Assembly: GCF_008831285.2 (NCBI RefSeq)
Contig: NC_045143.1
Span: 6,767,503 to 6,831,502 of the forward strand
DNA: 64,000 bases
Reading direction: 5' to 3'
Source of the DNA: Nymphaea colorata
Lineage: Eukaryota; Streptophyta; Magnoliopsida; Nymphaeales; Nymphaeaceae
Below are positions 5,901-63,153 of this stretch, piece by piece. The position numbers and the translations under genes are program-made. The notes under the pieces are model-generated. The model was not told the origin of the DNA and searched no databases. It saw only the letters and a list, made by a program, of their open reading frames with translations. Position 1 is the stretch's first letter. Each line of letters starts with the position of its first letter.

Positions 5901-8900
5901 CTATCTCGCCACCGGATTATGTGGGATTTCAACAAAAGAAGATTCGCTGGTCGTCATTTCAGATACGGAAGCCATGTCCACCCAAGAAGTTTCCATCCTT
6001 AAGGCTGCCTTCAGCGTGCTTACAATTTCGGGCATATCTGGTCTTCCAGCTGGATCTTGTATGGCAGTCTTTGCAATCGCTGCTACTTCCCAGACAGATT
6101 GGGTGTTACACCGGCCCTTCAATAATGGATCAAGTAGACTCTCTATATCCCCTCTCATGAGAATAGGCATGACCCATCTAGTGAGATTGCATTTTTCTTT
6201 CGTTTCAGTGATCACAATGGCAGGCTTCCCTGTTATGAGTTCGAAAAGGACTACTCCGAAACTGTACACATCACTCTTTTTAGTGAGAGTCTGTGTATAG
6301 AGATACCTGCCCATAGACAAAAGTTGGTTCAAAGACTAACTTCATCCGGTCAATGATATATTTGTGAAGGTACAATTTCAAGGATAAATATAATGAAAAA
6401 CAATAACTAAAGGAAATGACATACTCAGGATCAATGTATCCCATTGTGCCAGCAACTTTGGTTTGATAAGCTGTATGCTCTGTTCCATCTACAGCTCCAG
6501 CTTTGGACAACCCAAAATCTGCTAATTTGGCTTGCAGATTTTCATCCAATAGAATATTTGCGGGTTTGATATCTCTGTGAATGATTGCTGGACTGCATCC
6601 TGTATGCAGATATTCTAAACCTGCAGTTCACCAGTGGGTTTACCTTATTAAGTTATAGTAACAGTAATCAAGGCCGGGAAAGGCTGACGGAGCGCTATAA
6701 ACGGACCTGTTGCAGCGTCGAGTGCTATCTGCAGTCGCTTTCTCCATGTCAACTCTTTCTTCCTATCTGTTTGTACAAAGCGACAACATTCACTTAAAAT
6801 TATGAAGTTGGATATACAATTCCTTTCAAATGTAAATCATAAAATTGACGACGATTTCCAAAATATGCATAAGCATTAAGCCACATTAACGCATTGCGCC
6901 GATACAATTGAATGCCTTTCAAGGAAAGAATTGAAAATGGCATTTTAACTAATTTGGTCAGACCACTTACTGTCTTTTGACTGCCTGGAATACATACCTT
7001 TTAATACCTGAGAGAGACTTCCACTCGCCATGTACTCGGACACGAGTATTATTTCATCTTGTTCTTCGCATAAGCCAACTAACGAAACCAAGTTCTTATG
7101 ATGGATTCTCATCAAAATCTTTATCTGCAATAGGCCAGGGGAGGGAAATTACATAACATGTAAATTATAAAATTACTTATCTGCTCTTGGCAACTAAATC
7201 TCCCCTTTTCTGGCATGAAGAGAGTTCCATTCTTCTACTTAATTGTGCAAAGGTAATGGTCCAAACCAATTAACATACAATGATACAAGTATGCACTGTG
7301 ATTGTAAAAAGCAAGTAACGAATTTTATGTGCACACAAAGTTGCAGTTAAGTACCTCTGCGAGGAGGTTGCCAATAAGTGAGCCCGATTCTTTCAGTTTC
7401 TTGACAGCAACCTTAAGACCTTCTGGTAGCTGGCCATAATAGACGGTGGAAGACCCTCCTTCGCCGATGACCTGACTGAAGTTTCTGGTAATGCTCAGGA
7501 TCTCGTTGTAGGTAAAGTAACGTGTAGCCGTAGCCACCAGTGCCATTCTGTCGGTTGGTCTAGGACTTGACCCTTCACTAGCTGCATGGCGTCCTGATTC
7601 TTTAGCTGCAGAAGTTGTTCTTTCCACGGCGGTTCCGTTGCCTGTTTTTGCCGGCACTTCTACAACTTCCATTGAGTAAGCCATCGCCATTCCTTTAACA
7701 GGGAGAAAGGCATGACCGTCCTTTGGGCTTCTCATTGGTGTTTCTTGCTCGACGTGTCCACCTTCATCGAGCATGAGAGACAGATAGTGAATCCAACTGG
7801 TCGTTGACCATGGCCATTTACATCATGTCATTGTCAGTTTTTTGGTTATATTTAAAAATAACTTAATATGTTCTACAATTTTGGTTAAACTGCAGTGGCC
7901 TGTTTCGTGAAGAAACTGTGTCCTTGCTTGCATATAGATCTTGATTGGAGTCAAACTCAAAAGCCAGGCTGTATGTTTAACCCCTTCAACAAGGGAAGCT
8001 TCAATGTAATTCGGTGAAGCTATGGAAGAACAGTTTTACTTTTGTTTATGGGCGTTTATGGGCGAGTGAGGGGTTAACAATCATTTAAAAGGAAAAGAGG
8101 TTTGAAAACCCCTTCATTTCCTCTTACTCCTGTTGGTCATGAACTGTATGAAACCTAGATGTATACATGTCAACTAGGGTGTAGCAATGCCATTGTTTAT
8201 AGTTTAGAGAATAGCACTGGGAAAATCTAATCAGTGACATGCCTTCTATGCGACCATCTACTGACATGCTATGCTAAGTTTTGTTGTGTTCACTGTTTTC
8301 TCTTACTTTCGAACCTCGTGACCTACCACCGGTTGTTTTCCTCAAATGAATGTGCAACAAAAATGTTTTCCCAATCATGGATCATGAGATTTTCTAGAGG
8401 CCAATATTAAAAATATCGGGAGTTGAAGACCCTGGATCAATTCGACGCATGGTGTTTTTTTTCTTATGGTACTGGCCTGCGGCTGCTTATTGACTATCAA
8501 TAGAAAAAGAAAAAATAAAAGGCTTAGGCTGTGTTTTATTGCCTAAAAAGCTTTTTCAAGAAGATGGCTTAATTTTGGAATTCTTTTTCAAGAACTGCGG
8601 ACGATCTCAGATATTTGATGTGAACAATCAAGAAAAACCATAATTATCTGCACAATTAGCACGACCTTAATGAAAAAAAGAAAAAGGAAAGCACACCAAA
8701 GAAAGTCCAAGGCTAGAGGAGAACAATATGGCAATGCAGAGAAGATGCATATGGCTTCTTAACCACAGAGGCCCCTGATGATGAAGAATCTCGTTGAAAT
8801 AATTAATTAAATAGTAAAAACCCGCTTAATTAATTACCTGGTTGTTCAACGTCTCCTTTTGTTGGCTTCTTCTTGTACTTCCACACGACGGCAACTGCGA

Positions 8901-11792
8901 TTAATCCAATCACAGCGATGGCACCCACGACGGACCCTACTATGATGCGGACCGGCGTTCCTCCGCCGTCCCCTTTGTCCCCTTCAAATGGGACAGGAAA
9001 AGATTGTCAGATACATAAAGAGATATTACAATCTGGTTGTAGCAACTAAGCTACAATTGCTGATGGTCGAGAAGAAGACTGTACAAGCTGGTTGTTCTGC
9101 AGCTAGGCTCGAGTCTTCTAAGCTTGGCCTGAACGAAGTCCAGGTTGGTCGAGGCAGACCTCCAAGCACTATAGAAAACCTCTATTTATAAAAGAAAAAA
9201 AAATTGTTTTAGAAAAGGAAAAAATAGAGTTTGAAAATATTATCTTCGACCGCTGAAATTGTTGAAATGGTGAAATAGGCTGCACCGGCACATATAGGCC
9301 TATAAAATAATTTAATTCGGACGTTCGGATCATGTACAGGTGGTAGTGGCGGGGGAGGAGGCGGATCATGTACAGTTAGTGGTGGCGTGGGAGGAGACCA
9401 ACCATTTGGCGGGGGAGGAGACCATACATCTGGTGGCGACGATGCATCTGGTGGTGGGGGAGGAGACGATACATCTGGAGGCGTCGATGCATCTGGTGGC
9501 GGGGGAGGAGGCGATACATCTGGTGGCGGGGGAGGAGACGATACATCTGGTGGCGACGGTACATCTGGTGGCGACGATACATCTGGTGGCCGGGGAGGAG
9601 ACCAAAGATATGGTGCCGAAGAAGGCGCTTCCAACTCCCGTCTATTTTGAGGTTGAAATGGGAATGCCTGTGGAACAGGCGGAGAAGATACCGCCTGGAG
9701 GTAAAGTTGAGCAGGTGGTAATGCAACTGAACCTGCCAATAACAACAAACCGGCTGTGGTAGAAGATGGTTCATTTGGCGCCGAAGAAGGCCCATGCAAC
9801 TCTCTTCGTTTTTGAGGTTGAATTGGGAATGCTGGTGGAGCAGGCGGAGAAGATACCGCCTGGAGGTAACGTTGAGCAGGTGGTATTGCAATTGAACCTG
9901 CCAATAATGACAAACCGCCTGTTTGCATCAAATGGACTAATTGCACCAAAATAATGGCAAAGAACCAAATGACCAAAATACTGATCACGAGTCATTTAGA
10001 TTATGGCAGCTACGACGAAGTCAAGATAATCCTTGTGGTTTAGGTTAGGGGCCAAGTGGTCCGAAAAACTCTAGCCCTGAACGTCCTTTTTCCCGGTCGA
10101 TGCTTATGGAAAATTACTTGCCATGCGGTTTTATTGATGTCTACCAAAAATGGGTATGCACAATGAGTCGTGAAACAACTCAGACCTGACTTGAAGGCCA
10201 AAATGTGGGCATTAGATATGATATAGATTCAAAGCCCAATAATTTATGAGAGAAAAAACGATAAAAGTCTAGTTGTCCAAAATAATTCTTAATAATAAAC
10301 TTGACAAAGCTTACTTAATAAAAACTTAATCACCAAACCAACAAAGTACACAAAAGATGATGTAAATGCACCAAGTACACTTAAATAATATACTTGCATT
10401 ATTGGTCAGGATGAAACTTGCAAAAGTAAAATACAAGAATTCACCTCAATGAGTTCATATAGTGAGCTATCACCCAAGTACTCAATGTCCTTGCACTTGA
10501 GCACGCTCTTGACATTCTTACACTCCAACTCACGAAGTAAGCACACAAACTCACCGAACTCTTGCTCAAGATACTCATAACTCTCTCGTTGCTAGACACA
10601 AAGGGCAGCACTTCTATTTATAGGGATTCAAAAGCTTGGTGGTGAAGGTTCCACCACATTCTAATTTTATTTTTTATTTTAGTCTTTTTAAGCACCGACA
10701 TACAAAGAAAGGCTCAAAGCCTCTTGAGTTTTCATGACCCTTTCAAGAGAGTTAGTAATGACTCTTTACACTGAGCTTGACTCTAGCTTAACTCGATTAT
10801 TAGCTTGAGCTGAAACTCTAGTTATAAACTACATGAGCTCGACTTGGCTCATGTCTTCCCAGTTTGTTGATCCTTTTGGGTATGTCGGTAATTTTTGAGG
10901 AATTGTAATATATTTTTCAGTTTCTTTGGTTTCTCGACTTGAACTCACCCTTGTAAGCTTGCTCCAGCTTAACTCGTTTATTAGCTTGAGCTGAAACTCT
11001 AGTTATAAATTACATGAGCTCAACTTGGCTCATGCCTTCCCAGTTTGTCGATCCTTTTGGGTATATCTTCAATTTTTGAAGAATTGTAACATATTTTTTA
11101 GTTTCTTTGGTTTTTTTAAAAGAAAAAAAGAAAAGAAAAGAGTAAAGCTGCACTAGCATAAATGAGTTGAGCTCGAGACTGAACTCTATTTACGAGCTCA
11201 AGCCAAGCAATATGTGCCTCAATTCCTAACCAAAAACATGTTCAAACTGACCATATCTTTCTAAGATAGGTCCCGCCAATGTTCCTGCTTTGCTTTTCAT
11301 TTTTTATGGACACTTGACACTTTTTCCCCGACTTTCGTATTTTTCTTCTGTCCTTTTATGTGCGTTTACTACTATCAAAACGGTTGCATTATTATCAGGG
11401 GACAGAACCAAAGAAATTTATTTTAGAGGGAAATTGTTTTTTTTTTTTCATAGGAAATCAAAGATACCCAATAAACATTTTTTTTAATTTACAACGTTAA
11501 ATTTAAATAGCAGTTTTGAACCTAGGACGATTTTATATTTTGAATTCAATTTAAAACCCCATTTTTTGAAAAAAAAAAATCAATGTGACAACTATTCAGA
11601 ATCACTCCTAATCAAGGTCGCCCATCTAAAGTAGGTAGGTGGTTGAAAGTAAAATAAGGAAAAAAAATGTAAACTAATACTGAATAGGGAAAATACCTAC
11701 TATATTTTTCCTCTTGTTTTATCTTAATCTTCCCTCATGTTGGATCAAACAACCTTGATTAAATGGTTGGGTATATATAAATAAATAAATAA

Positions 11793-11877
<85 letters not shown>

Positions 11878-13015
11878 TGTGGAAGAGATAGGCTTTAATT
11901 TTCAAATCTACCACTATATAGGGAGACAGTGATAATTAATAAAAAAATGCATGTGCGGGTGACTCGCTTTTAATTGGAAATCGCTTCCCTCAAACTTAAC
12001 GCCCTAATTGATAATTGATTCCACAAACTCGTTGGCAGTTGCGAAAATGAATACCGCAAAGTTTTAAGGACCAACAAATTTGTAAGTAGCCTTTTAATGT
12101 GTGTGTGTGTGTGTGGAAGAGATAAACTTTAATATTCAAATCTTGCACCATATGCGGAGACAGTGATAATTAATAAAGAAATGCATGTGGGAATGACTCG
12201 CTGTTAATTGGAAATCGCTTCCCCCAATCTCAACCCCTAATTGATTCCACAAACTCTTCGGCAGTTGTGAAAATGAATCCGGCAAAGTTTTAAGGACCAA
12301 CAAATTTGTAAGTAGCCTTTTAATGCAGTTAAAAGTAATTTGGGTTAGCTAGGTATTTAGTTACTGTACACTCTCATAACATTATCATTGACATGCAAAG
12401 AGGAGAAGAACGTAAGGCCATCTTATTTGTAAGAGGCTTTCTCTACTAAAGACACGATGATACATAACAATCTTTTGGGTATGCCAACATTTTTCTTTGA
12501 CTAACTTTCTAACACTGAGAAGAAACATAATATAAATAATTTAGATATAATGAAGAAAGGCAACTATCTGATACAGTTAATCAAATATGCATCGATATCA
12601 TTGGCTCTAATTATAGAAGCCAGTCACTAATGAACATGAAAACAATTTATTGAAGTAGTCAGATCTTATCCAACCAACTTAAGTTGGCCGTAGCTCTGAT
12701 CTCATCAATGGAAGGTTAATTTTTCATTAACAGTTGCATAAACTTGATTGTAACACTAACTTCGCGTCTGAGCTGGAGAGCATTTCTCGTGAGGGATGGG
12801 AAGAAAATCAACTAAATGCACCCTACATTTCAGCTCTAGGACTGGATCTCACCAAATTGGCCATCAACCACAGACGTGAAGAGAGCCGCAACGATCAAGA
12901 ACGAGAAGAGGTTCTGCTTGCCATGGAAAACCATTGCGCTCCTTCTTCCTTGATAGGTCATTAGAATCTTCTTGAGGTCGCAAGCATAGAGATGAGGAGA
13001 GGAAAGAGAAGCCAT
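5901..13015 (-). CDS. Gene A: proline-rich ectodomain receptor-like Ser/Thr kinase (8 exons)
   Basis: Predicted plasma-membrane receptor kinase. Exons read on the minus strand: 13015-12853 (signal peptide, core [18 protein letters not shown]), 9897 to about 9286 (proline-rich, with two copies of a GSxAxPPAQ module and then [11 protein letters not shown]-type repeats), 8981-8838 (TM, then stop-transfer WKYKKK), 7761-7355 (juxtamembrane, FTYNEIL, glycine loop [14 protein letters not shown] lysine), 7124-6998, 6766-6707, 6620-6425 ([17 protein letters not shown]) and 6306-5901 (SDVYSFGVV to the stop). Splice sites and phases agree at every junction except the donor of exon 2. There the GT used in B and D is GA, so the end of exon 2 is uncertain. 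A weak GT at 9285 would restore phase and give about 704 residues. Kinase residues look intact. By family knowledge it phosphorylates Ser/Thr on unknown partners; ligand unknown. Translation probably starts at the internal Met (12934), not at 13015. Confidence 0.8.
9286..9897 (-). repeat. Duplicated ectodomain module and proline-rich minisatellite in gene A exon 2
   Basis: Two direct copies of a module of about 165 bp (9897-9733 and 9732-9568) each begin with an acceptor-like TTATTGGCAG followed by codons for GSIAIPPAQ or GSVALPPAQ. They are followed by short repeats coding (P)nDVSS, (P)nDAS and WSPPPP between about 9610 and 9390. In A the boundary between copies stays in frame, so read-through or use of the inner acceptor both give an open ectodomain, with two or one modules. 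Confidence 0.75.
10777..11116. repeat. Direct duplication of about 178 bp in intron 1 of gene A
   Basis: Two copies start near 10,777 and 10,955 (shared TTAGCTTGAGCTGAAACTCT and CTTCCCAGTTTGT). Intron 1 of C has one shortened copy (about 44,190-44,290), so the doubling is specific to A or was lost in C. The GAGCTTGA/GAGCTCGA wording recurs near 17,900-18,200, 35,500-35,900 and 49,290-49,600, suggesting dispersed repeat material. Confidence 0.75.
11790..11877. repeat. Compound (AT)n(GT)n(GA)n microsatellite
   Basis: Uninterrupted AT, then GT, then GA dinucleotides in intron 1 of gene A. Confidence 0.95.
11877..12325. repeat. Direct duplication of about 234 bp in intron 1 of gene A
   Basis: Copies 11,877-12,099 and 12,111-12,325 share GGAAGAGATA at the start and TTTGTAAGTAGCCTTTTAAT at the end. 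Intron 1 of C has a single copy (45,122-45,333). Each copy abuts a GT run, which may have mediated the event. Confidence 0.85.
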
Positions 13016-13048
13016 GATCCGTTAGATGAGAAAAATGGCGCCGGTCGG

Positions 13049-15634: not shown

Positions 15635-15642
15635 GATACATG

Positions 15643-16815: not shown

Positions 16816-16873
<58 letters not shown>

Positions 16874-17640
16874 GTATGCGTGCGTGAATGGTTAGTCTAG
16901 CTATGTCACTCAATTCACTAGGGCAGTTTGATTCATTGTGATATATAGTTGGGAGAAAGATGAAAATAAAAGAGTGTGAACTAATATAAGATAAATATGC
17001 CTCATCAGCTTTTCTCCTTGTATATCTATCAATCACTAATTTGGAAAAAGTTGAGGGCTGAAATAATTTTTTTATCTACCTAACATTTAAGTGTCTAGCA
17101 CCTATTGTTATATAAACAAATATGTTGTGCCAAGAGTTCAAAATGCCTTTTAGAAGGAAAAATCAAATGAATTTCGTTGATGAAAATAGTGGCCTTGATG
17201 AGAAGGGGTTCCCTCTTCGATATAGTGGCAACGAATTCCAACCCGTAATCCAAGCACTAAAACATATAAATGCAGCGGTTTGCAGTTTGGGAATACTAGC
17301 ATTATGTTATTATCTCATATATTTAACCTAAACATTAGTTAGATTATTTGATGAATCTGCCCTACTTTTTTAGTAGATGAGTAAAACAGTAACATACGTT
17401 TTTCGGAAAAGCCCCTAAGATTATCCCGATATCTACCATCAACCACAGTGAGTGAAGAGAGCAGCAGGCATCAATTAAGGGAAGAGGTTGATCCGCTTCA
17501 TATGATTCACCATCGCCAAGTTGCCATTGTAATAATAAGGAGCTTCATGAGGTTGCGATCGTTGTGTGATCGATGCTGGCTGTGGAAACAAGCTGGCTTT
17601 GTGTGATCGATGCTGACTTGCGAAATTAATCTCCCTGTCT
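15643..17640. other. Intergenic region between A and B units
   Basis: No gene supported. Positions 16,190-17,330 match 34,470-35,060 upstream of B (shared AACCGCAAGTTCA and AAGAGTTCAAAATG), so the block belongs to the older A/B duplication. Contains an (AT)n tract at 16,823-16,869. Confidence 0.55.
16823..16869. repeat. (AT)n microsatellite
   Basis: Uninterrupted TA dinucleotides; a shorter one lies at the matching place, 34,858-34,875. Confidence 0.95.
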
Positions 17641-21880: not shown

Positions 21881-21881
21881 C

Positions 21882-22280
21882 ATGTGGCTGACTTACAGTT
21901 TGCCAGGCGGCCTCCAATCACCCTTATTTCCCTCCTCTAAGACAACATCCCTCACGCCCTTGAGCTCTCTTTCCTCTCATCTCTTCCTTCAGTCTCTTGC
22001 TCTCTTCCTTTCATTCCCTCAAACCCTTCATCTTTTTATTTTGTTTCTCTTCGTATTCAATATCAAGCTTCCATTTCCAATCAGAGGAAACCTTGGAGGA
22101 GCTCGTGAAGAGTTTATCTCCATTGAAGCTGCCACCAAAGAGCCTCGTCTTGCCCATAAGAGCCAAAAAACATCTCCCCCAAACGGCGGATCGGGTGATG
22201 CCTTTGGCCCGCTGTGCGTAAGTACAAACACTGCCCCGTTGGTGCCCACCATATGGAATTTGCAAACAAAACCAAAATAA
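21882..22280 (+). other. Possible gene fragment start in B unit
   Basis: A pyrimidine-rich leader followed by a frame coding KLPFPIRGNLGGAREE and then Lys/Pro-rich sequence. The D-unit copy (53,808-54,266) is longer. No family recognised, and the two copies differ by indels. Weak support as a gene. Confidence 0.2.
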
Positions 22281-22926
22281 GAGAAAATATCAAATTGCAC
22301 ACCTTTGTTAAGCACATTGTAGAGAAAAGGGATATTGCAACAAATGACAGAGAAACAGCAAAAAAATCTGTAGCAAAAGCAAGACAAATTGGAATCAAGA
22401 TAATTGTCATGACAAGAACCGGATATCTGGAAAAATATAATAATGTAATACCATTCAAAATCAATCAGATGAAACACTGAATTTCCATTCTTGAATAACA
22501 TAATAACGCAATACCATCAACTTATCAGGCAGACCAGACCACTCACACGTGTTTTGCTTTATCATTTGGTAGAATCATATTTCCATACAAAGTTTCGATG
22601 TAAAAGCCTCACTAACATTTTGATGACGTCTTTGTACTTTCCTTTCTACATTTTTCCATTCTAAAATGCTTTTTTTATTTATTCTTAAACATAAAAGTGC
22701 AAATAGACACGAGAAACTTAGAAATAGCAAAAAATGCATATACTTTACTAAAAATGTGGTGCACAAAGCAAGACGATAGTCATGCAAACGGTTTGTGTGT
22801 GTCTGCGCATGGAAGCTCTCATGTAGATAGCCTGCATAAATAAAAAAAAATTCACCCGATTTTTAGATTTCCAAACAACCACGTTGAGACTTAGGACCAT
22901 TCCACTTGGCAGGATGCCCTGGACCA

Positions 22927-24972
22927 TCATTTGTTTTTCTTTTTTAGAAGCAGGAAAGGAGAATATCTTCTGGTCAGAGCTTGAGGCCTGTTTTGCAGAA
23001 ACCAGATCATTTGAAATACTTGGTTTTGCAGTTTCACTCTTACGCGTTTAGTTTCTTTTCTATATGCTGTCCCAGAGAAATATTGGACATTTGGCAGCGC
23101 AGCAGTAGTAATGGCAGGTTCTTCTGGTTGAGTTATGAATTTTTCATCTTGGGGGGTTCTGCAAGAAATTATTTTGCATATCCTTCGCTGCCACATGAAA
23201 ATTTAACTATCTCAGATGAACTGGCGCTGTTATGTGATTCAGTTCATTATTTATGCTGATCTGATTCATCGGAAACCTTCCTCGTCAAAGACTAATAATA
23301 ATAACTTTTAATATCAGAGCTGAATATCCTTGCTTCTGAACCATGGGCAATTGAGCCTATGTTTTCCCCATCTGATGAAAATATTGCCATCGTATTTTCC
23401 ATTCTTTTTGAAGGATTTAGAAACACAATTGGGAAAAGGTGATATGCTGATTCGGTTAGTCGACTCTCCTGGTTGTGCACAATATTCTCTGTCGAGAAGA
23501 AATCTACCTGAACTATGTTCTAGAACATTCTCCCTTCCAGTCGAGGACAAGGATCTCATGAAATGTGCTTTCCGCAGCCCTTCAGATTCACAGTTCATAT
23601 GAAATTTAGGTGACAGATAGTGCATGGGCGGCGCCATCTGGAACATTCTCCCTTCCAGTCGAGGACAAGGATGATCTCACGAAATGCGATTTCAACCAAA
23701 TCTTCTTCTGATTCCCCTTGTGCCAGTCGTTCGCTGCTCCGGGCTCCCATTCACATTTTTCAGGCTCATAACGTAGAATGCATCTTATCTTTCACACCCA
23801 TTATGATCGAATTTTGAAATGAAAAATGAGAAGCACCATCATATCTGAAAACTAAAACAACATTTCCATTTAAAGAGTTCTGTTCTACAAATTCCCGCCG
23901 GCCATTGTCGAAAGAGAATCTGCCACCTGCTTTCTTCAACTGAACATTCCAAACGGTGCAGCTAGGACCCCCTAAGAAGACAGTTTTATGTTGCTCTCCA
24001 ACCGTACGTTGTACAAAATTTTGTGGGATTTCCTATCGGACATTATAAACGTTACTTAAAGGAAACCATGTAGCAAGAAAGATGCACCATAGATTGTTCA
24101 GTTGACAGGTGACTACAACTTAAAAATAATCACTATGTTAATCATTTCAAGAGAAAGCAAAAACTGGTAAAACTGAAAAGGTCATAATTTTACATGCTTT
24201 GCAAGAAAACAGGCAAATTGGTAGAAGGCTGAACATAGTGACTTAGTTGAGAAGTCGCCTACAAGAACCTTGAGAAAGTAAAAATCTTCAGGTGAGTCCA
24301 TGTCTCCAAGAAAAGTGGTCTTTCTATTTCTTACACACACCAGACATCATCTTCACGTTCACGAAAAACTTGTTTTAAGAAACTTTTTAAGCAAAGCCAA
24401 GAAAGTTACTACAAGATATGATGCTCTACAAAACAAATTCTGCTGCGGGACATTTTTCACACCATCAAAATTCGCCTTCCTGCAATTTTCACATGCTTGA
24501 CAACGAAATCCAGTAAACTTTTATAAAAATGATAAGCTAAAAACCATTCCCAAACATTGTATCAAACAGTTACAGGCATGGTTGAATGTCCATCATCTAG
24601 CAGAAGGAACCAACAAATTATGAGGCCATATAACCATCTCAAACGGACCCATTTCTCATTAAGCTCAGACAGCATATATACCTCAATCAAGAGCAACCAA
24701 TGAAGCTCTCAAAGGAAAAGATACAAAAGTCTGAAAAATGCTTACAATCAACTATGGCTCAAAAATTTAACATAACCATTCCCTCAAAGTACACAAACAT
24801 GCATAGAGAACTCCATCACCTTCACCACAGCCCTTCTCCACAAAAGTATACGCAGGGGTGGACCATCGACAACGATGAAATGACGACAAACAATGGACAT
24901 CAATAAACTCAACATGCATAGCATCTTTAATATCACTCCATTGACAACCCTAAAAACAGAAAAATAAGACAA
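22927..24972 (-). pseudogene. 3' part of a decayed gene of unknown function (B unit)
   Basis: Minus-strand coding-like blocks in the same order as in the D unit: one near 24,930-24,780 begins after TTTTTAG with codons for GCQWSDIKDA and breaks after LREWL, where the D copy stays open; one at 23,646-23,314 codes KAHFMRSLSSTGRENVLEHS; one at 23,196-22,927 codes PEEPAITTAALPNVQYFSG. Together with 25,183-25,422 they look like pieces of one minus-strand gene. I do not recognise the family. Confidence 0.35.
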
Positions 24973-25130
24973 TATATCCCCCTGATTCTATAGACCTATC
25001 ACCGTCACATGAATAACCGACAGACGAGAGAAAAAAACCCTAGAAGTTTTATTTCATCTGGAAATTAGCCACTACCACGGCACAGATTTAAGCATGGAGA
25101 TATTGATTCGGATCAAACACAATTACCTGT

Positions 25131-25177
25131 GTGTGTGTGTGTGATTGAGTGAGAGAGAAAGAGAGAGAGAGAGAGTT
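25131..25177. repeat. (GT)n(GA)n microsatellite
   Basis: Within the intron after the transit-like exon; the unit II counterpart is at 56,577-56,629. Confidence 0.9.
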
Positions 25178-25182
25178 ATAAC

Positions 25183-25422: not shown

Positions 25423-25513
25423 CGTTACTCTCCTCGATCTCCAGGAGAAATAAAAAATGGAGCCCTAAGTTCGAGCCCTCCTTCTTCGCCTTCTCCCTCG
25501 CGGGAAGATAAAA

Positions 25514-25522
25514 GGCGCGAAA
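25514..25522 (-). promoter_or_regulatory. E2F-like site upstream of the transit-like exon
   Basis: TTTCGCGCC on the minus strand fits the plant E2F consensus TTTSGCGC and lies about 90 nt upstream of the ATG at 25,422. In unit II it has become TTTCGCTCC. A single 8-bp match can be chance. Confidence 0.3.

Positions 25523-44776: not shown

Positions 44777-44778
<2 letters not shown>

Positions 44779-44857
<79 letters not shown>
44779..44857. repeat. (AT)n microsatellite
   Basis: About 79 bp of AT dinucleotides in intron 1 of C; a second AT/GT compound tract follows at 45,081-45,122. Confidence 0.95.
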
Positions 44858-44860
<3 letters not shown>

Positions 44861-45080
44861 AATGATAATGCAACTATTAAGAATCACTCAGTTATGTAAA
44901 TGGACGGTTGAAAGTAAAATAAGAAAGAAAAACGAGGTGAACTAATACTACATAGTGCAAATACCTATTATATTTTTTCTCTTGTTTTCTCTTAACCTTC
45001 CCTCATGTTGAATAAAACAACCTTGATTAATATATATATATATAAAGAATAATCGATAATTGGTGAATACTATGCCCACC

Positions 45081-45124
<44 letters not shown>

Positions 45125-46783
45125 GAAGAGATAAACTTTAATATTCAAATCTAGCACCATATGCGGAGACAGTGATAATTAATAAAGAAATGCACGTGGG
45201 AATGACTCGCTGTTAATTGGAAATCGTTTCCCCAATCTCAACTCCTAGTTGATTCCACAAACTCTTTGGCAGTTGTGAAAATGAATCCGGCAAAGTTTTA
45301 AGGACCAACAAATTTGTAAGTAGCCTGTAAATGCAGTTAAAAGTAATTTGGGTTAGCTAGGTATTTAATTACTGTACACTCTCATAACATTATCATTGAA
45401 ATGCAAAGAGGAGATCGTAAGGCCATCTTATGTCTCTCTAATTGGCCTTTTTTAACTAGATTACGATGCTTTCTCTACTAAAGACACGATGATACATAAC
45501 AATCTTTTGGGCACGCCAAGACTTTTTTTTAACTAACTTTATAACGCTAATAAGAAAAACAATCTAATTTAGATATAATGAAGAAAGGCAACCATCTGAT
45601 GTAGTTAATTAAATATGCATCGATATCATTGGCTCTAATTATAGAAGCCAGTCACTAATGAACATGAAAACAATTTATTGAAGTAGTCAGCTCTCATCCA
45701 ACCAACTTAAGTTGGCGGTAGCTCTGATCTCATCAATGGAAGGTTATTTTTTCATTAACTGTTGCATAAACTTAATTGTAACACTAACTTAGCGTTTGAA
45801 CTAGAGAGCATTCCTCCTGACATTGGTGCAACAGATGGGAAAGGAGTTAGTAGGCAAAAGAAATTATTTTTCTCAACTCTTTGTGTTATAAAACAGAAAA
45901 TAAAGATATGCAAGTTAAAATATAAGGAGAAGCATCACACAGAGGCAACCTTAAGGTATGGGAGATAACTTTGACCTTCACTTGGATGGTGGGATTAGAG
46001 CCACCAAATTGTAGTTTAGAAAATTTTTAATAAGGGTAAAATATAAATTTGAAAAGTTTTATGTCAGTTAAATTAATATTCTAAAATATAGGTTTTTTTT
46101 CTTTGCCCTCCCTCGCTTATCTCCTTCTCCTGCCCACTTGGAAAACGTGAAGGCAGGGTAGCTGTGGGCCTCTCTCTCTTTGTCCCTTCCTCTGTCATTG
46201 TCTTCTTATAAGCAGTGTGGCAAAGCAACAACAGAAACCAAACACACGAGCGCGGGAGAGGAATCAAATTGTCTACAAAAGTTTTGACTCTAAGGACGAC
46301 CAATAAATGTCAAATTCCAAAATCTAATTTCATGCAGTGAACTTCATCATTTTGAAAAATCTACTGATTTACCCTTGCCACCTTAGAAACGGGCCTCTTG
46401 AGTACCACTTATAATTTGTAATGCATTGTAATGCAAGTAGGAAAGCATCTTAAAATATTGCAGATTACTTTGAGCGCGCCCTGTCAAGAAATAGTACGTC
46501 TAATTCTCTAAAGCAGAAAGCTGGAAAATCAACTGAATGCACCCTAAATTTCTAGGGCTGGATCTCACCAAATTGGCCATCAACCGCAGACGTTAAGAGA
46601 AATGCAACGATCATGAACGAGAAGAGGTTCTGCTTGACATGGAAGACCATTGCCCAGTTGCCTCCGCTCCTTCTTCCTTGATATGTCATTAGAATCTTCT
46701 TGAGGTCGCAAGCATAGAGATGAGGAGAGGAAAGAGAAGCCATGATCCGTTAGATGAGAAAAATGGCGCCGATCGCTGGTCGG

Positions 46784-53625: not shown

Positions 53626-53807
53626 AAGGTAGCCAGCCTTCTCTTCTCACTTAGTTAACTTAATTTTGAAAGATTTGACCTTCTTAATATTTAAGCCAAT
53701 AATACATAAAAAAATAGCTAATTATACTTTCAAATGACGAAAATGCCCTTAAGCGTCTTCCTTTTATAAATGCACCCTTACTTCCCTCCTCTAAGACAAC
53801 ATACCTC

Positions 53808-54266
53808 ATGCGGTTGAGCTCTCTTTCCTCTCCTCTCCTTCTCCTCCTCCTTCGATCAAATTTCTCTCTTCCTTTCATTCTCCTCATCTTTTCGTTTTCT
53901 TTCTCTTTACATTCAACATCAAAGCTTCCATTTCCAATCAGAGGAACCCTTGGAGGAATCCGTGAACAGTTTATCTCCACTGAAGCCGCTACCAAAAAGC
54001 CTCTTTTGCCCACAAGAGCCAAAAAGCATCTCTCTTCCAAATGCCGGGCAACGTCGCTCCCAGCTAACCCAACTTTAGGCATGGAGGGTCGGGTGATGCT
54101 TTGGCCTGCTTTGCCTAAGTACCGGCAGAAGTCCCCTTCAGAACACTGTCCCGTTCGTGCCCACAATATGAAATTTGCAAACAAAACCAAAATAAGAGAA
54201 AATATCAAATTGCACACCTTTATTAAGCACATTGTAGATAAAAAAATAGGATATTGCAACAAATGA
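53808..54266 (+). other. Possible gene fragment start in D unit
   Basis: A frame of 152 codons with a hydrophobic, Leu/Ser/Phe-rich N-terminus (LLLLLLRSNFSLPFILLIFS) followed by KLPFPIRGTLGG and basic sequence. TTTTATAAATGC lies about 45 nt upstream of the ATG. The B-unit copy has lost this TATA-like stretch and differs by indels. No family recognised. Confidence 0.25.
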
Positions 54267-54362
54267 CAGAGATACAGCAAAAAAATATGTGGCAAAGCAA
54301 GACAAATTAGAATCAAGATAGTTTTCATGACAAGAACAGGATATCTGGAAAAATATAATAAT

Positions 54363-54490
54363 GTAATACCATTAAAAATCAATCAGATGAAACACTGTAT
54401 TTCCATTGTTGAATAACGTAATACCATTAAAAATCAATCAGACGAAACACTGTATTTCCATTGTTGAATAACGTAATACCATCAACTCAT
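54363..54490. repeat. 55-bp tandem duplication
   Basis: Copies 54,363-54,417 and 54,418-54,472, then a partial third, each starting GTAATACCAT. The B-unit site (22,444-22,520) is essentially single. Confidence 0.9.
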
Positions 54491-54899
54491 CAGCCAGACC
54501 AGAACAGACCACTCAGACGTGTTTTGCTTTATCATTTGGTAGAATCATATTTCCACATAAAGTTTCGATGTAAGAGCCTCACTAACATTTTAGTGACGTC
54601 TTTGTACATTCCTTTCCACATTTTTCCATTCTAAAATGCTTGTTTTATGCTTAAACATAAAAATGCAAATAGACATGAGAAATAGCCAAAAATGCATATA
54701 CTTTTACTAAAAATGTGGTGCACAATGCAACACGATAGTCATGCAAATGGTTTGTGCGTGTCTGTGCATGGAAGCTCTCATGTAGATAGTCTGCATAAAT
54801 AAAAAAAATCACCCGATTTTCAGATTTCCAAACAACCACGTTGGGACTTAGGACCATTCCACTTGGCAGAATGTCATGGACACCATTTGATTTTTCTTT

Positions 54900-56586
54900 T
54901 TTTAGCAGCAGGAAAGGAGTATCTTTTGGTCAGAGCTTGAGCCCTGTTTTGCAGAAAACAGATCTTGTGAAATACTTGGTTTTGCAGTTTCCATCTTAGG
55001 CGTCTAGTTTCTTTTCTATATGCTGTCCCAGAGAAATATTGGACATTTGGCAGCTCAGCAGTACTAATGGCTGGTTCTCCTGGTTGAGTTATGAATTATT
55101 CATCTTGGGGTTTCTGCAAGAAATATTTGCTTATCCTTCCCTGCCACATGAAAATCTAACTATCTCAGATGAACTGGCCCTCTTATGTGATTCAGTTCAT
55201 TATATATGCTGATCTGATTCATCGGAAACCTTCCTCTTCAAAGAGTAATAAAAATAACTTTTAATATCAGAGCTGAAGATCCTTGCTTCTGAACCATGGA
55301 TAATTGAGCCTATGTTTTTCCCATCTGATGAAAATATTGCCACCTTACTTTCCATTCTTTTGAAGGATTTAGAAACACAATTGGAAAAAGGTAATATGCT
55401 GATTCCGCTAGTCGACTCTCCTGGTTGTGCACAATGTTCTCTGTCGAGAAGATATCTGCCTGAACTATGTTCTAGAACATTCTCTCTTCCAGTCGAAGAC
55501 AAGGATCTCATGAAATGTGCTTTTCGCAGACCTTCAGATTCATAGTTCATATGAAATTTCAGTGGCACATATGCATGGGCGCCATCTGGTGATACAATTT
55601 CAACCAAATCTTCTTCTGATTCCCCTTATGCCAGTCGTTCGCTTCTCCGGGCTCCCATTCACATTTTTCAGGCTCATTTTCATTTAAAGAGTTCTGTTCT
55701 ACAAATTCCCGCCGACCATTGTCGAAAGAGAATCTGCCACCTGCTTTCATCAACTGAACATTCCAGACACGTTCACGAAAAGCTTGTTTTAAGAAACTTT
55801 TTAAAAAAAGCCAAGAAAGTTAATACAAGATATGATGCTCTACAAACAAAAATCTGCTTCGGGACATTTTTCACACCATCAAAATTCACCTTCCTGCAAT
55901 TTTCACATGCTTGACAACTAGATCCAATAAAATTTTATAAAAATGATAAGCTGAAAACCATTCTCAAACATTGTATCAAACAGTTGCAGGCATGGTTGAA
56001 TGTCCTCCATCTAGCAGAAGGAACCAACAAATTATGAGGCCATATAGCTATCTCAAACGGACCCATTTCTCATTAAGCTCAAATAGCATATAAAACTTAA
56101 TCAAGAGCAACCAATGAAGCTCTCAACGGAAAAGATACAGAAGTTTTGAACGATAGTCCAACTTACAATTCTCTGAAAAATGCTTACAATCAACAATGGC
56201 TCCAAATTCAACATACCATTCCCTTAAACTACACAAACATGCATAGAGAACTCCATGACCTTCACCACAGCCCTTCTCCACAAAAGTATACGCAGAGGTG
56301 GACCATCGACAACGATGAAATGACGACAAACAAGGAACATCAATAAACTCAACATCCAAAGCATCTTTAATATCACTCCATTGACAACACTAAAAACAGG
56401 AAAATAAGACAATAGATCGCCCCCGATTCTGTAGACCTATCATCGTCACATGAATAACCGACAGACGAGAGAAAAAAAACCCTAGAAGTTTTATTTCATC
56501 TGGAAATTAGCCACTACCACGGCACAGATTTAAGCATGGAGATATTGTTTTGGATCAAACACACTTACCTGTTTGAATGTGTGTGC

Positions 56587-56629
<43 letters not shown>

Positions 56630-56882
56630 TAATAACCTGATTACTTGGAGGACAGTCATTGGACGACAAGGCTGATGATAAGGAGATGAGTCTCTTTGCC
56701 TGCAGCCAGTTACGGGGAACGGGAGAAGAGATAGACTGTCTGCCAGCGAGAGATGGACGATCTCAGAGATTTTGGATGCAGGGGAGCAGCCACTGGTCGG
56801 ACCTGATCTTCACGATCGACGTTGGGATTCGGAGCACAGGGAAGCAGAGAAAGAGGGGGATTTTGAGCGCAGGAAAGCCATC
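54900..56882 (-). pseudogene. Decayed gene of unknown function, D-unit copy
   Basis: Counterpart of 22,927-25,422. First exon 56,882-56,645 is frameshifted early (1 nt missing in the CCCTCTTTCTC stretch). The exon-like block 56,386-56,123 is open here (GCQWSDIKDALD to YLFR and stop). Blocks 55,753-55,559 (GRREFVEQNSLNENEPEKCE) and 55,607-55,200 (KAHFMRSLSSTGRENVLEHS to a stop) follow. The two copies are broken at different places, so the ancestral gene was probably working before the block duplication. Family not recognised. Confidence 0.35.
56577..56629. repeat. (GT)n(GA)n microsatellite
   Basis: Compound dinucleotide run, paralogous to 25,131-25,177. Confidence 0.9.
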
Positions 56883-57735
56883 GTTACTCTCCTCGATCTT
56901 CAGGAGAAGTAAAAAATCGAGCCCTTCTTCTTCGCCATCTCCCTCGCGGGAACATAAAGGAGCGAAACGCCTTTATTGAAATAATGAAATACGCAAGTCT
57001 TCCGAACCGAACATGCATTTGAGTGTCGATGTCGACACACAGCGTTCCAGGTGTCGGAAATGAAGTGTCGTCCACGCCCATTTTTTTGTCCAGTACTGTG
57101 TAGGCATGAAGAACAAATTTTACATAACTAGCTTTGGTAAAGTGTGTTCAAGGATTGACCTGCAAACATTGTGAATCCAAGTAAAAGTTATATTCTTAAG
57201 TGTACAGCCAAGATTTACTATTAATAGTCAACAATCAGATTTTCTCTGCTTATTGGCATGTGCAAAGTCCACATTCTCACTTTCAGCTGCTAAGAGAATT
57301 TTTAATCTTTCCTCTTTTTCGGCCCATGTGTATCGCCGGACATACATGGACCTTGGTAGGAGAGCTTTGGGATCCCTTACCTAGTTAAGCTAACCAAGGC
57401 GCCTCTGTTTCATCTATCTGGTCCCCAATAAGACTGTTTCAGCATGACTTTGAAAAGCAGATTCAGCCATTCAACAAGAAGTATAGGCCATTTGAATAGT
57501 GAAATGAAAGTCCAATGAATCCCAAATCGTTATTAGCTAACGAATTACAAACGCATTGTTTTCATGAAAAATAAAGGAATACACAAGATTGTTTGAAGAG
57601 CATAGTTGTTCCAACCAGTAATTTAACATAGATGAGATGCCCCTTTTCAATGAGGAAAAACGCTCTGCAGTTTGAAATATGATGAAACTAAGAGGCAGAG
57701 TGGGGAACCGACGGCAGCAGAGGAAGATGCATGAA

Positions 57736-60700
57736 CTATCTCGCCACCGGATTATGTGGGATTTCGTCAAAAGAAGATTGGTTGGTCATCGTGTCATATA
57801 CGGAAGCCATGTCAACCCGTGAAGTTTCAATCGTTAAGGCTTCCTTCAGCGTCCTGATGATCTCGGCCACATCTGGTCTTTCAGTTGGTTGTTGTGTGGC
57901 AGTCTTTGCAATCGCTGCTACTTCCCAGACAGATTGGATGTTACACCGGCCCTTCAACAATGGATCAAGTAGACTCTCTATTTTCCCTCTCATGAGAATA
58001 GGCACAACCCAATTAGAGAGATGGCACTTTTCATTATTTTCAGTGATCATTATGGCAGTCTTTCCAGTTATGAGCTCAAGAAGAACTACCCCAAAACTAT
58101 ACACATCACTCTTTTTAGTGAGAGTCTGTGTATAGAGATACCTGCCCATAAGCAAAAGTTGGTTCAAAGACCAACTTCATCCGGTCAATGATATGTTTGT
58201 GATGTAACATTTTTACGGAGCAATATAACAAAAACAATTACTTTAAATGTGCACAGACAAAATCAAAACCTCAAATTTCCTTAAGAATTTAAAAAAGACA
58301 ATGTGCATACATATTCCTTCCATCATGTGAACCATACGCATAGCAGTTCAGATTTTGTGTCTTTTCTGAAGTACATGAACATGACATCAGTGCCCAAAAA
58401 CGTCTATAAGAATCAACTGTTAAAAATGTTTTTGTGATTTGTGGATCAAATTTTGTTAACTGAACAATTTGAGAGCAATTGAACTTTGAAGTTAAAATCA
58501 AATTATTAATGCTGCATAAAGAAGTTGTTTTGATGATTTGCCAATAAGATAGTGGAAAGTAAACACTGGAAGAATGATTGTGGAGTCCAATGAAGGAGTA
58601 GATACAAGAAAATTAGGCTTAAAAATGGACAGAAAGTTTGAATGAAAGTGGATGGTCTTTTATACTGCACCACTTTAAACTTTATACTCATGAGAAAATG
58701 GAGAAAAAGGAATGGAGGTAAATGACATACTCAGGATCGATGTATCCCAATGTGCCAGCAACTTTTGTTTGATAAGCTGAATACTCGGTTCCATCTTCTG
58801 CTCCAGCCTTGGACAGCCCAAAATCTGATAACTTGGCTTGTAGATTTTCATCCAAGAGAATGTTTGCGGGCTTGATATCTCTGTGAATGACTGCTGGTCT
58901 GCATCCTGTGTGCAGATATTCTAACCCTGCAGTTCAGCGGTAGTTTACCTTATTAAGGGATAGTAACTGAAATCAAGGCAGGAAAAGGCTGGAGGAGCGC
59001 ATATCGACCTGTCGCAGCGTCTATTGCTATCTGCAATCGTTTTCTCCATGTCAACTCACTGGACCTAGCTGCTTTGTTCAAAGCCACAACAATCACTTAA
59101 GAAATTGGATACATAGCTCCTTTCAAATGTTAAGGATAAGATTGACGATGATTTTCCAAAACATGCTTACGCTTTAAGCCACATTAACCTCACTGTGTTG
59201 CAGCAATTGAGTACCTTTCAAGTTTCAACGAAAGAGTAGAAAAGGGAAATTTAACTGATATTTAGTCGGACCACTTACTGCTTCTGACTGCCTAGAGTTC
59301 ATACCTTTTAATATCTCAGATAGACTTCCACCGGCCATGTACTCGGACACAAGTATTATTTCATCTCGTTCTTCGCATAAGCCAACTAATGAAACCAAGT
59401 TCTTGTGATGGATTCTCATCAAAATCTTTATCTGCAAGAGGCCAGGGGGAAGGCAATTACGTAACATATAAATTATGAACTTACTTATCAGTTCTTGGCA
59501 ACTAAAACTCCCCTTTTCCAGCATGAAGAGAGTACCGTTCTTTTATTTTATTGTGCAAAGCTAATGGTGCAAAGTAATTAACATACAAGTATGTGCTGTG
59601 ACTGTAAAAGGCAAGTAAAGAATTTTATATGCAAATAAAGATGCAGATAAGTACTTCTTCAAGGAAGGTGCCAAATTGTGAGCCTGACTCTTTCAATTTC
59701 TTGACAGCAACCTTAAGACCACCTTCTGGTAGTTGGCCGCAATACACGGTGGAAGACCCTCCTTCCCCAATGATCCGACTGAAGTTTCCAGTAATGCTTA
59801 GGATCTCGTCGTAGGTAAAATGACGTGCACCAGCAGCCACCAGCGCCGTCCTGTCGGCCGTTCTAGTGCCCGAGACTTCGCTAACTGCATGGCATCCTGA
59901 TTCTTTAGCTGCAAAATTTGTTTTTTCCGTGGTGGTTCCGTTGCCTGCATTTGTCGGTGCTTCTAGAGCTTCCATCGAGTAAGCCACCGCCATTCCTTCA
60001 ACAGGGAGGAAGGCATGACTATCCTTTGGGCTTTGTATTGTTTCTTGGGTGTCTTGTCCACCTTCATCAAAGGTGGAAGGAGAGAGTGTGAGAGGGTGAT
60101 CCAATTGGTACTTGCCAATTCGATGGACATTTTTAGGAAGCCATTTGCCAGTTTTTAGTTATATTTCAAACTAATTTAAGCTATTCTATTTTTGAATTTC
60201 TATTAAAATGCAGTGACCTGTTTCCTGATGAAACTGTGTAAAAATCTTGGCTCAAGTCAAACACAAAAGCCCGGGCCACATGTTTAACCCTCTCAACAAG
60301 CGGCACTTCAATTTAATTTGGTGAAGCTATGAAATTACTGTTTTAGTTTTGTTTTTAGTAATCCAAGAAACCCGAAAGACCCTCCATTCCGGCGTCATGG
60401 GCTGCAAAGGGAACCTGGTGACATACAATACTTTTTAACTAATGATGCCACCATTCACACTTTATAAAAATTGTACCCACAAGACTGATAACATACCTTC
60501 TCTACACACAATGTAACGACCTGCTCGACCTTTTGCTACTTTAGTTTTGTTATGTTTACTGTTTTAAGTTATAAAAAAGAAAAGGATTACATCTCTTACT
60601 TTTGAAGCTTATGACGTGTTGTTTCGCTCAAAATAAACTAAAGATAAAAGTGCAATTCATTTTAGTAAAGATGGTTTTTCGAATGATTGAAGATGGGGTT

Positions 60701-63153
60701 TTGTAGAGGCGAATATTAAAAATATCAAGACTTAAAGACTCCAGATCAATCGACGTGTGTTGATATTTTTCTTATTTTTCCTAAAATTTGGTATTGGCAG
60801 CAGCTTATTGGCCTTCAATTGAAAAGAAAAAGGCTTGGGCTGTGTTTAATTGCCTAAGAAGCTTTTTTAAGATGGCTTAATCATGACATTGTTTTTCAAG
60901 AACTGCAGACAGTTCTCAAATATTTAACTGTAAAATCAAGAAAAGGCATACTTATCTGCGCAATCAAACACAGCCTTAAAGAAAAAAAAGAAAAACACAG
61001 AATAAAAAGAAAGTATAATGCTAGAGGGGCATACATGGCCCTTCAGAGCAGATTTATATGGCAACTTTAACCATAGGGGCCCCTGATTGGGAACCTTGTT
61101 GAACTTAGTAAATAGCAGCTTAATTAATTACCTGGTTGCTCAAGAACTCCCTTTGCTGGCTTCTTCTTGTACTTCCACGCGACCGCAGCTCCGATTAATG
61201 CAATCACTGCGATGACGCCCACGACGGACCCGACTATGACGCCTTCCGATTCAAATGGCACCAGAGAAGTTTGTGAGATATATACACAGTGATATTATGC
61301 TGATGGTGTTTTTTCTTTTCCTCTGTTAAGGTGTTCTTTAAATCAGATCATCATCTTCTTATTTTCTGTTGTCCTGCGACTGATCGACACAAGCTAACGG
61401 CCTTTAAGTTATTTTGATGGATATAAAGAGATTAAAAATTGAAAGCGAGATGGAAAAAATAATAAACGGATTTGCAAAACTTTAGGAGCAGATTTAGAAC
61501 AAATAAAGGCGAAATTGGTATAGCTCGGATGACCACTTGGAAGCTGTTCAAGGTCTATCTGCACAGCTTTTACGTTGAGGAGCTTGAATGACTAGTAAAA
61601 TGAGAATCTATATCTAAATTAGGGGACAAGAAGTCTCAATTACGATATAAAAAAGAAAGAAAGAAATAATTCTGCTGGTTTTATCGGTGATAAAGAAAAA
61701 TTAAAAAATAATAAAATAACCCATCATCTCGCAGGCTCGCAGCCGTTTGGTCGGTCGCCGGCCACATCCGTCAATCGCCAGTCTCCAGCCGCTCGTAGGA
61801 CGCAGGCCGCTCGTAAGACACGGGACGCGGTGAAGAAGAAAGAACAATGAAGTTATGGAGTCAAGATGAAGATGAAAAACTGATGAAAGAAAACAGCGAA
61901 CCCTTTTCTTATAAACATAATTTTCACTCCACTCCTGGTAATTTTTTTCTTTATTTTTAATATTATCCGGCATCCTTTACCAAAATTTTCTTAGTTGCCC
62001 ATGACTTTATTAAAAATTCTAAACTACTCGCCATTTTCAAGAATCGAGATTTATCCTTCGTTCGTCTGAAACATGGAACATGTTTCCAGATGCAAATTCA
62101 AATCTATCAAACAAAAATATACATTTTATTTCCATTCCACCGTTTCAGAAATTTGTTTGTGAAAACATATTTTCTATTCCACAATTCGTGGCTGTCAAAC
62201 GTTACCTGAATGAGAAGGCGGGGGAGGAGGCGAAGCAGCATGTGCGGTGCGAGGTGACGAATGATATACAGGTTGTGGCGGGAGAGGAGACCAACGATTT
62301 GGTGCCGAAGAAGGCCCTTGCAATTCTCGTCTATTTTGAGGTTGAATTGGGAATGCCGGTGGAGCAGGCGGAGAAGATACCGCCTGGAGGTAAAGTTGAG
62401 CAGGTGGTAATGCAATTGAACCTGCCAAGAATGACAGCTGGTTAAGCAACTAAGTCTCAAATGAACAGGCAGAGAAGAACCATTTGGCGTGGTAGCCGAC
62501 GAACCATCTGACGTGGTAGAAGACGAAGGATTTGGCGCCAAAGAAGCCCCTTCCAACTCTCTTCTATTTTGAGGTTGAATTGGAAATGCCTGTGGAACAG
62601 GCAGAGAAGATACCGCCTGGAGGTAACGTTGAACAGGTGGTTCCACAGGCGGAGAAGATACGGCCTGGAGGTAAAGTTGAGCAGGTGGTGTTGCAATGGA
62701 ACCTGCCAATAACAACAAACCGGGTGTTTGCATCATGACTGGTTTTGCAACTAAGAAACAAATGAAACTAATCGCGCCAAAATAATGGCAAAGAACCAAA
62801 TGACCAAAATACTGATCACGCTTCATTTGAATTATGGCAGTTACGACGAAGTCAAGTTAATCGATGTGGTTTAAAGGGGCCAAGCCAGAAAAAATCAAAC
62901 ACTCAAAAGGAGGTGGGGTGCGGGTCAATTATAACTTGTAATGCAAGCACGAAAGATGCAGATTAATTTACAAGCTTCAGCCAAGATTTCAAGACATCCA
63001 AATCTCTAAAGCAGAAAGATGGAAAATTAACTACAGGCAAGCAAAATTTCAGCTTTGGAGCTGGATCTCACCATATTGGCCATCAACCACAGAGGTGAAG
63101 AGAGCTGCAGCGATCAAGAACGAGAAGAGGTTTCGCTTGAAATGTATCACCAT
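57736..63153 (-). CDS. Gene D: proline-rich ectodomain receptor-like Ser/Thr kinase, intact
   Basis: Exons, minus strand: 63153-63072 (signal peptide, [10 protein letters not shown] start), 62421-62206 (proline-rich), 61242-61132 (TM, AWKYKKK), 60061-59655, 59431-59305, 59068-59009, 58926-58731 and 58141-57736. Total 1605 nt, all phases consistent, 534 residues. Lys257, HRD about 349-351 and DFG about 369-371 are present. The start at 63153 is chosen because the upstream in-frame ATG (63246) meets TAG after 15 codons. A second proline-rich exon copy lies just upstream (acceptor at 62703, exon about 62702-62481 or 62702-62505). Joining it to the downstream copy would need an intron of only 59-83 nt, so the two may be alternatives. 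Closest to gene B across exons and introns. Role as for B: membrane receptor kinase of unknown ligand. Confidence 0.86.
62206..62702 (-). repeat. Tandemly duplicated proline-rich exon in gene D
   Basis: Exon 2b (62421-62206) encodes [17 protein letters not shown] and ends in a good donor CAG|GTAACG. Upstream copy 2a starts at 62702 with GSIATPPAQ and has its own acceptor. Donors in 2a are weak (G|GTTCT at 62480, G|GTTCG at 62504). Unspliced 2a enters 2b in the wrong frame, unlike gene A. Both copies keep phase 1 at each end. Confidence 0.65.

Follow-up and report, generated by a model that had tools for sequence, protein, structure and literature searches.

A tandem receptor kinase array of Nymphaea colorata in which a proline-rich exon appears to replace the malectin and leucine-rich repeat ectodomain

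How does a kinase of the malectin-like, leucine-rich repeat (LRR) class I type come to stand behind a short proline-rich ectodomain? The question is raised by a 64,000-nucleotide stretch of the Nymphaea colorata genome (contig NC_045143.1, positions 6,767,503 to 6,831,502; hereafter the window), whose minus strand is a tandem array of one receptor kinase gene type in four copies, A, B, C and D. Malectin-like LRR-I receptor kinases, of which SYMRK and IOS1 are examples, are also the neighbours of this array on C6. We hold it fairly probable (roughly 0.7) that the array represents a locus-specific receptor kinase clade that kept an LRR-I kinase, lost its malectin and LRR parts and gained a proline-rich exon, with a possible role as a wall sensor or co-receptor.

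Copy B is open through all eight exons and encodes 582 amino acids counted from the first Met. Its exons are as follows:

32962 to 33121, minus strand: B exon 1, signal peptide, probable start Met at 33043; GT donor, phase 1 out
31566 to 31835, minus strand: B exon 2, proline-rich ectodomain, phase 1-1, 38% Pro; AG/GT borders common to D
29762 to 29872, minus strand: B exon 3, transmembrane segment plus KYKKK, phase 1-1; hydropathy maximum 2.73 over 19 amino acids
28158 to 28576, minus strand: B exon 4, juxtamembrane segment, Gly loop, catalytic Lys and alpha-C Glu; from copy alignment and motifs
27812 to 27938, minus strand: B exon 5, kinase, 127 nt, a length found also in two malectin/LRR-I genes
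27515 to 27574, minus strand: B exon 6, kinase
27237 to 27432, minus strand: B exon 7, HRD, DFG and DPE; intron within the DPE Glu codon (GA/G)
26239 to 26644, minus strand: B exon 8, kinase C-lobe and tail

Alignment of the copies gave the exon order signal peptide, proline-rich segment, transmembrane segment ending in KYKKK, juxtamembrane segment with kinase start, and four more kinase exons. In B and D, these eight exons are joined by a single phase chain (1,1,1,0,1,1,2) with GT-AG borders at all seven introns, so the eight-exon structure that an earlier note on this DNA had proposed, leading in consistent phases to an RD kinase, holds for both, and in B without a break. The donor of intron 7 (GA/GTATGT) splits the Glu codon of DPE, and the motif GAGTATGTC, with intron 7 starting GTATGT within that codon, is identical in four of four copies. 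Self-comparison of the window revealed that the repeat units take in the gene and its flanks (e.g., 24354-30213 vs 55768-61600, 86%). The two highest hydropathy peaks of B are its transmembrane segment and its putative signal peptide, and Pfam recovered the kinase (PF00069, E 1.1e-47; PF07714, E 2.8e-47) with a sub-threshold ABC1-kinase match and no further domain at E <= 0.01. By these features the array protein fits a plant receptor-like kinase (RLK), with a signal peptide, one transmembrane segment and an active-type RD kinase whose activity is predicted.

All seven kinase motifs checked were found in A, B and D. Across the kinase plus tail, the ratio of nonsynonymous to synonymous substitution (dN/dS) was 0.29-0.35 (NG86) or 0.36-0.42 (YN00) for the pairs A/B, A/D and B/D, with an excess of synonymous changes in each (one-sided Fisher p 6.6e-8, 8.8e-10 and 4.9e-5, respectively). 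A chance reading frame would lack such a bias, and the substitution pattern thus indicates that the array kinase is under purifying selection. The juxtamembrane segment diverges more than the kinase in A/B: its dN/dS between A and B (7355-7761 vs 28158-28576) was 1.30 (NG86) and 2.27 (YN00) over 80 codons, a single pair with few synonymous changes, and the corresponding values were 0.79 and 1.13 for A/D and 0.44 and 0.56 for B/D.

Where this kinase came from is suggested by search ranks, exon junctions and neighbourhood. We ranked genome matches to exon 7, taking the nine array copies and then the next 52 matches and stopping at the first long single-frame kinase gene; for 49 of these 52, a malectin-like (PF12819) exon precedes the match on the same strand at a distance of at most 15 kb (median 4.3 kb). 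Two malectin/LRR-I genes were read up to exon 7, one on C4 (L078+L082) and one on C6 (L080+L083), the latter being, among the matches listed, the malectin gene closest to the array at its high end. Junction phases 1 (transmembrane to juxtamembrane), 0, 1, 1 and 2 are common to B and both of these genes, and each of the three has an exon 5 of 127 nt. In a tree of 42 kinase rows that included no named PERK, the array grouped with the two malectin/LRR-I kinases (97/93) and was sister to the C6 neighbour (94/89), which agrees with malectin/LRR-I descent but alone settles no nesting. The matches and the five common junction phases agree with the malectin/LRR-I lineage that the earlier note had assigned to the kinase.

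The array itself sits within a same-strand cluster of malectin/LRR-I genes (C6 6.575-6.595 and 6.866-7.150 Mb), with flanking malectin exons on the same strand at 6577475 and 6594453 on one side and from 6866230 onward on the other. Between 6,594,980 and 6,866,230 on C6 (~271 kb), no PF12819 place was found among the 128 matches listed, from a search that scored 121 of 222 candidates. No GDPC/LRR-cap exon was found on C6 between 6,592,248 and 6,865,093 with 81 of 81 candidates scored, and 73 places were found elsewhere in the genome. The earlier note had named hidden malectin or LRR exons as what would overturn its model; a three-frame Pfam scan from exon 1 to the transmembrane exon of B and D detected none at E <= 0.01, and its positive control recovered PF12819 in L080 (E 6.9e-51).

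Exon phases bear on how such an ectodomain could have gone. In both malectin/LRR-I genes read, the signal-peptide exon ends in phase 1, and the transmembrane exon, entered in phase 2, encodes a Cys pair ahead of the transmembrane segment; the array transmembrane exon is shorter, with a phase-1 acceptor, and starts after the Cys-pair part. Because the malectin genes leave the signal peptide in phase 1 and enter the transmembrane exon in phase 2, plain exon loss breaks the frame, and the replacement must have brought in a new acceptor or exon to restore it. The earlier note was thus right that exon 2 and the transmembrane exon of the array are both phase 1-1, but its proposal that the ectodomain could be lost without breaking frame fails on the phase-2 start of the malectin-gene transmembrane exon. 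Within the array, skipping exon 2 still joins the signal peptide to the transmembrane exon in frame. Our favoured reading, from exon content and phases, is that the malectin/LRR ectodomain was probably lost and replaced by the proline-rich exon in this array.

Exon 2 opens with a segment led by G or D, or a variant of it, followed by proline repeats, and its Pro content is 38% in B and 28% in D. The coding frame of B exon 2 is stop-free, and the other two frames hold 2% and 7% Pro against its 38%, in line with the short proline-rich ectodomain of the earlier note. In A, B, D, L045 and L051 the Pro-rich frame runs for 75-229 codons without a stop; the exon 2 of L045 and of L051 contains SPPPPP repeats with Tyr or Phe between, and motifs of SP3 or longer number one in B, five in L051 and three in L045. 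Exon-2 units are duplicated in A and D, and length and repeats vary strongly between copies. With BLAST, exon 2 had no match to the C4 and C6 malectin genes, and whole genes A-D matched these in the kinase exons and one 22-bp intron stretch. We infer that exon 2 arose from non-coding DNA, the source of which was not found.

We considered and rejected the possibility that exon 2 is a high-copy element: its genome matches number at least 13, of which 12 lie in the C6 cluster and one on C11. The C11 match (about 14.977 Mb; L049:1250-2239) is a lone segment of ~1 kb, comprising exon 2 and flanking intron, beside a receptor exon of another type; the open frame there resembles, from its general likeness, what we take to be a WAK-associated/LRK10-like receptor exon. 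This segment is 82-85% identical to L045, L048 and L051, with the Pro-rich frame open over 149 codons, and in a tree of nine exon-2 segments (midpoint root, no outgroup) it grouped with those three (100/100), apart from A-D and L050. These similarities fit, though they do not prove, a copy sent from C6 to C11.

Genome searches placed the other exons almost wholly in the same cluster. Exon 7 has nine array copies on C6 (6.670-6.839 Mb, 80-100% identity, dead copy C included); the transmembrane and juxtamembrane exons gave 31 matches, all on the C6 minus strand (6.612-6.858 Mb); and the signal-peptide exon gave 18, of which 17 are on C6 minus (6.625-6.859 Mb; 16 of those at least 140 bp long) and the sole match off C6 is 53 bp on C7. 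The count for the proline-rich exon is a lower bound from a search that skips very common words. Since the matches are confined almost wholly to C6, the family forms one cluster, with nine or more copies that carry the kinase plus further partial ones. Signal-peptide exons are in surplus (16 of at least 140 bp vs nine exon-7 copies; C6 6.625-6.734 Mb), and the surplus may belong to kinase-less or dead copies.

A putative neighbouring copy, E, lies beyond the high end of the window, with a signal-peptide exon at 6858684, a transmembrane exon at 6857666, one exon 7 and one exon 8. At C6:6840165-6855706, a range of which L084 covers 6846401-6847500, are nine copies of an exon-4-like juxtamembrane segment. 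In seven of them the matched part is free of stops, and a TGA interrupts the copy closest to the kinase. Two of these segments, read by eye, end just before the Gly loop at a possible donor. Either of the two might thus serve as a mini-exon of phase 1-1, about 190 nt long, and possible readings are serial or alternative juxtamembrane exons, or relics.

Taken in sequence, we suggest the following course of events. A founder gene in a tandem LRR-I cluster would have lost its malectin-like and LRR exons, and short repeat-rich DNA between the signal-peptide exon and the trimmed transmembrane exon may have become a proline-rich, partly extensin-like exon. Repeated duplication of the founder would then have given nine or more copies with a kinase, of which some are intact and others dead. 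If expressed, the protein would reach the plasma membrane, where it would present to the wall a short proline-rich stub rather than a ligand-binding domain; lacking the malectin and LRR parts, the protein would probably not itself bind the ligand of the parent family. It might act as a wall-tethered sensor or, by pairing via the common RD kinase with full-length LRR-I receptors, as their co-receptor or modifier; possible partners are the full-length receptors of its own cluster, which the array protein might tune.

Several observations weigh against this reading, beginning with the parentage of the kinase. Identity to B is 54.1% for both malectin/LRR-I kinases and reaches 54.2% for CrRLK1L-like ones; among solved structures B best matches FERONIA (236.7 bits, vs 210 for SYMRK); and the approximately unbiased (AU) test (186 columns) does not reject a clade of the two malectin kinases that excludes the array (p 0.159) or a grouping of the array with CrRLK1L-like rows (p 0.155). 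The identity values, the FERONIA match and the second of these AU results would suit an array kinase derived from CrRLK1L. The CrRLK1L-like genes that we met, however, are single open frames, mostly 830-990 amino acids long, with no intron in the kinase, whereas the array kinase is split by four introns at malectin/LRR-I phases, and both malectin/LRR-I kinases outscore every CrRLK1L-like kinase compared in alignments with B (492 and 459 vs at most 430). Membership in CrRLK1L was rejected on these introns and on the lack of a PF12819 match, and we regard such a derivation as very improbable; the C4 malectin/LRR-I kinase itself has SYMRK first among solved structures and FERONIA a close second. 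Still less credible is that the array kinases are PERKs, a family that their short, 38% Pro ectodomain and SP3-type motifs (in B, L051 and L045) do recall, the ectodomain of RHS10 being 37.3% Pro with seven SP3-5 motifs (excerpts of PMC4783376). Against this, the nearest non-array kinase relatives adjoin malectin exons (49 of the 52 best) rather than being malectin-free Pro-rich kinases, in a comparison whose tree held no named PERKs, and junction phases and cluster position are common with malectin/LRR-I genes; PERK membership was rejected on this ground, and the placement within PERKs that the earlier note had named as its second refutation did not appear. Since the AU test and percent identity are undecided, we base descent on the combination of junctions, neighbourhood and search ranks, which in our view makes descent of the array kinase from malectin-like/LRR-I receptors well supported.

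Other points weigh against a living, replaced ectodomain. The malectin gap is weaker evidence than the GDPC gap because only part of the malectin candidates were scored, and the three-frame scan of B and D had a malectin control and none for LRRs. Exon 2 is under slight constraint (B vs D dN/dS 0.71 on 71 codons) and is broken in three of the eight array loci read (C, L048 and L050), and A has no exon 2 donor at the site used by B and D. Introns are nearly as alike as exons (B/D 92.3 vs 93.0%, A/B 83.1 vs 87.3%), so the array duplications are recent. The broken exon 2 and the donor missing from A could belong to a decaying side branch of the LRR-I cluster, in which the proline-rich exon is non-functional, the copies are becoming pseudogenes and constraint on the kinase lies only in the past; the death of C, the stop upstream of the usable Met in D, the surplus of signal-peptide exons over exon 7 and the TGA in the copy E segment nearest the kinase all fit it. 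On the other hand, three kinases in the window are open, with their motifs and low dN/dS between them, B is open throughout, and the Pro-rich frame persists in five loci, and we judge decay of the whole array rather unlikely. We think instead, from the substitution and identity values, that some array members are probably functional and that the array is in fast turnover. More tentatively, and with less confidence than in the replacement itself, we suggest that the ectodomain was born in place from non-coding repeat-rich DNA, which would make the array a convergent PERK-like receptor built on an LRR-I kinase; with copy E amplifying a juxtamembrane mini-exon, both sides of the membrane might then have been rebuilt by exon gain in one cluster.

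Compared with known systems, the array is like malectin-like LRR-I kinases in its kinase sequence, its transmembrane, juxtamembrane and kinase junction phases, the phase-1 end of its signal-peptide exon and its tandem clustering, and unlike them in lacking detected malectin or GDPC/LRR exons, in its Pro-rich exon and in a transmembrane exon that starts in phase 1 instead of 2. With PERKs such as RHS10/PERK13, the array has in common a short Pro-rich, partly SP3-5 ectodomain, one transmembrane segment and a kinase; it differs in a kinase of another lineage (by search rank and junctions), an exon of about 72-91 residues in B and D and few extensin motifs. A short ectodomain part with a few prolines is sufficient in RHS10/PERK13, according to the excerpts of PMC4783376.

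LRR-RLK genes often lose their LRR or their kinase part. A survey of LRR-RLKs in nine species counted 252 of 2536 genes as RLK-only, with clade I rich in them and such genes present in every genome surveyed (PMC7318236, in excerpt), and the "undescribed system" of the earlier note was therefore too strong a term. Like these clade I variants, the array keeps the kinase and loses the LRRs; unlike the seven Arabidopsis clade I cases, which in the excerpted account keep a predicted malectin-like ectodomain (PMC7318236), it lost that domain and gained an exon, throughout a whole local clade. In SYMRK, cleavage close to the GDPC motif removes the malectin domain, leaving a shorter, unstable protein with improved NFR5 binding (PMC12582464, in excerpt). 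As in shed SYMRK, a kinase of malectin/LRR type would stand at the membrane without the malectin domain; the SYMRK form described in that excerpt arises by proteolysis and keeps its LRRs, whereas the array form is fixed in the gene, has no LRRs and adds a proline stub (PMC12582464). Domain gains are few, according to the excerpted part of one review (PMC10317173), and no proline-rich LRR-I receptor of this kind was recognisable in the titles and abstract openings of the open-access papers that our searches listed. The unusual part is the replacement exon throughout a whole local clade. Parent-type genes, the changed clade and decaying copies stand side by side in this cluster, so that the steps of ectodomain replacement may be read from DNA, and the array offers a snapshot of plant receptors swapping their sensing end. 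The cluster is also a natural test of how an LRR-I kinase acts once its malectin and LRR parts are gone, and of whether a wall-linked receptor function can come from a proline-rich stub on its own.

The remaining copies and fragments in the window are listed below; the limits of the array interval are exact, with 5901 the final base of the copy A stop codon and 63153 the copy D start (second Met).

57736 to 63153, minus strand: copy D gene, 534 amino acids from the second Met; eight exons, GT-AG
63153-63072, 62421-62206, 61242-61132, 60061-59655, 59431-59305, 59068-59009, 58926-58731 and 58141-57736, minus strand: exons of D
62481 to 62702, minus strand: upstream second copy of the exon-2 unit in D, probably unused; low end approximate
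5901 to 13015, minus strand: copy A gene, 549 amino acids if exon 2 ends at 9751; exon 2 donor uncertain
13015-12853, 9897-9751, 8981-8838, 7761-7355, 7124-6998, 6766-6707, 6620-6425 and 6306-5901, minus strand: exons of A
9323 to 9750, minus strand: second exon-2 unit with Pro-rich tail in A, open, without a homologous donor
39527 to 46743, minus strand: copy C, pseudogene; limits approximate
37933 to 38316, minus strand: exon-8 fragment, about 71% DNA identity to A

In D, an in-frame stop separates the first ATG from the second Met (63246-63154); the same frame has no stop there in A and B, which makes the second Met the probable true start of all three. The kinase part of A is open, and the whole-gene frame of A, 549 amino acids long, requires an alternative exon 2 donor (9751/9750). 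In C, exon 4 is mostly deleted, and we found a frame-shifting gap, a TGA, a 21-base gap in exon 7 and loss of the exon 2 frame. A 90-bp piece of the signal-peptide exon lies between A and B (17436-17525).

Rfam and tRNA scans of the window found nothing, and Pfam gave no match above cut-off for ten other open reading frames of the window, eight of which either lie outside the array exons or are of unclear kind, the exon-8 fragment (37933-38289) included. Minus-strand open frames at 22010-23770 and 53680-55680, without a Pfam match above cut-off, are conserved between both duplicated units, and 53684-54382 holds a weak CCCH-finger match (E 0.02).

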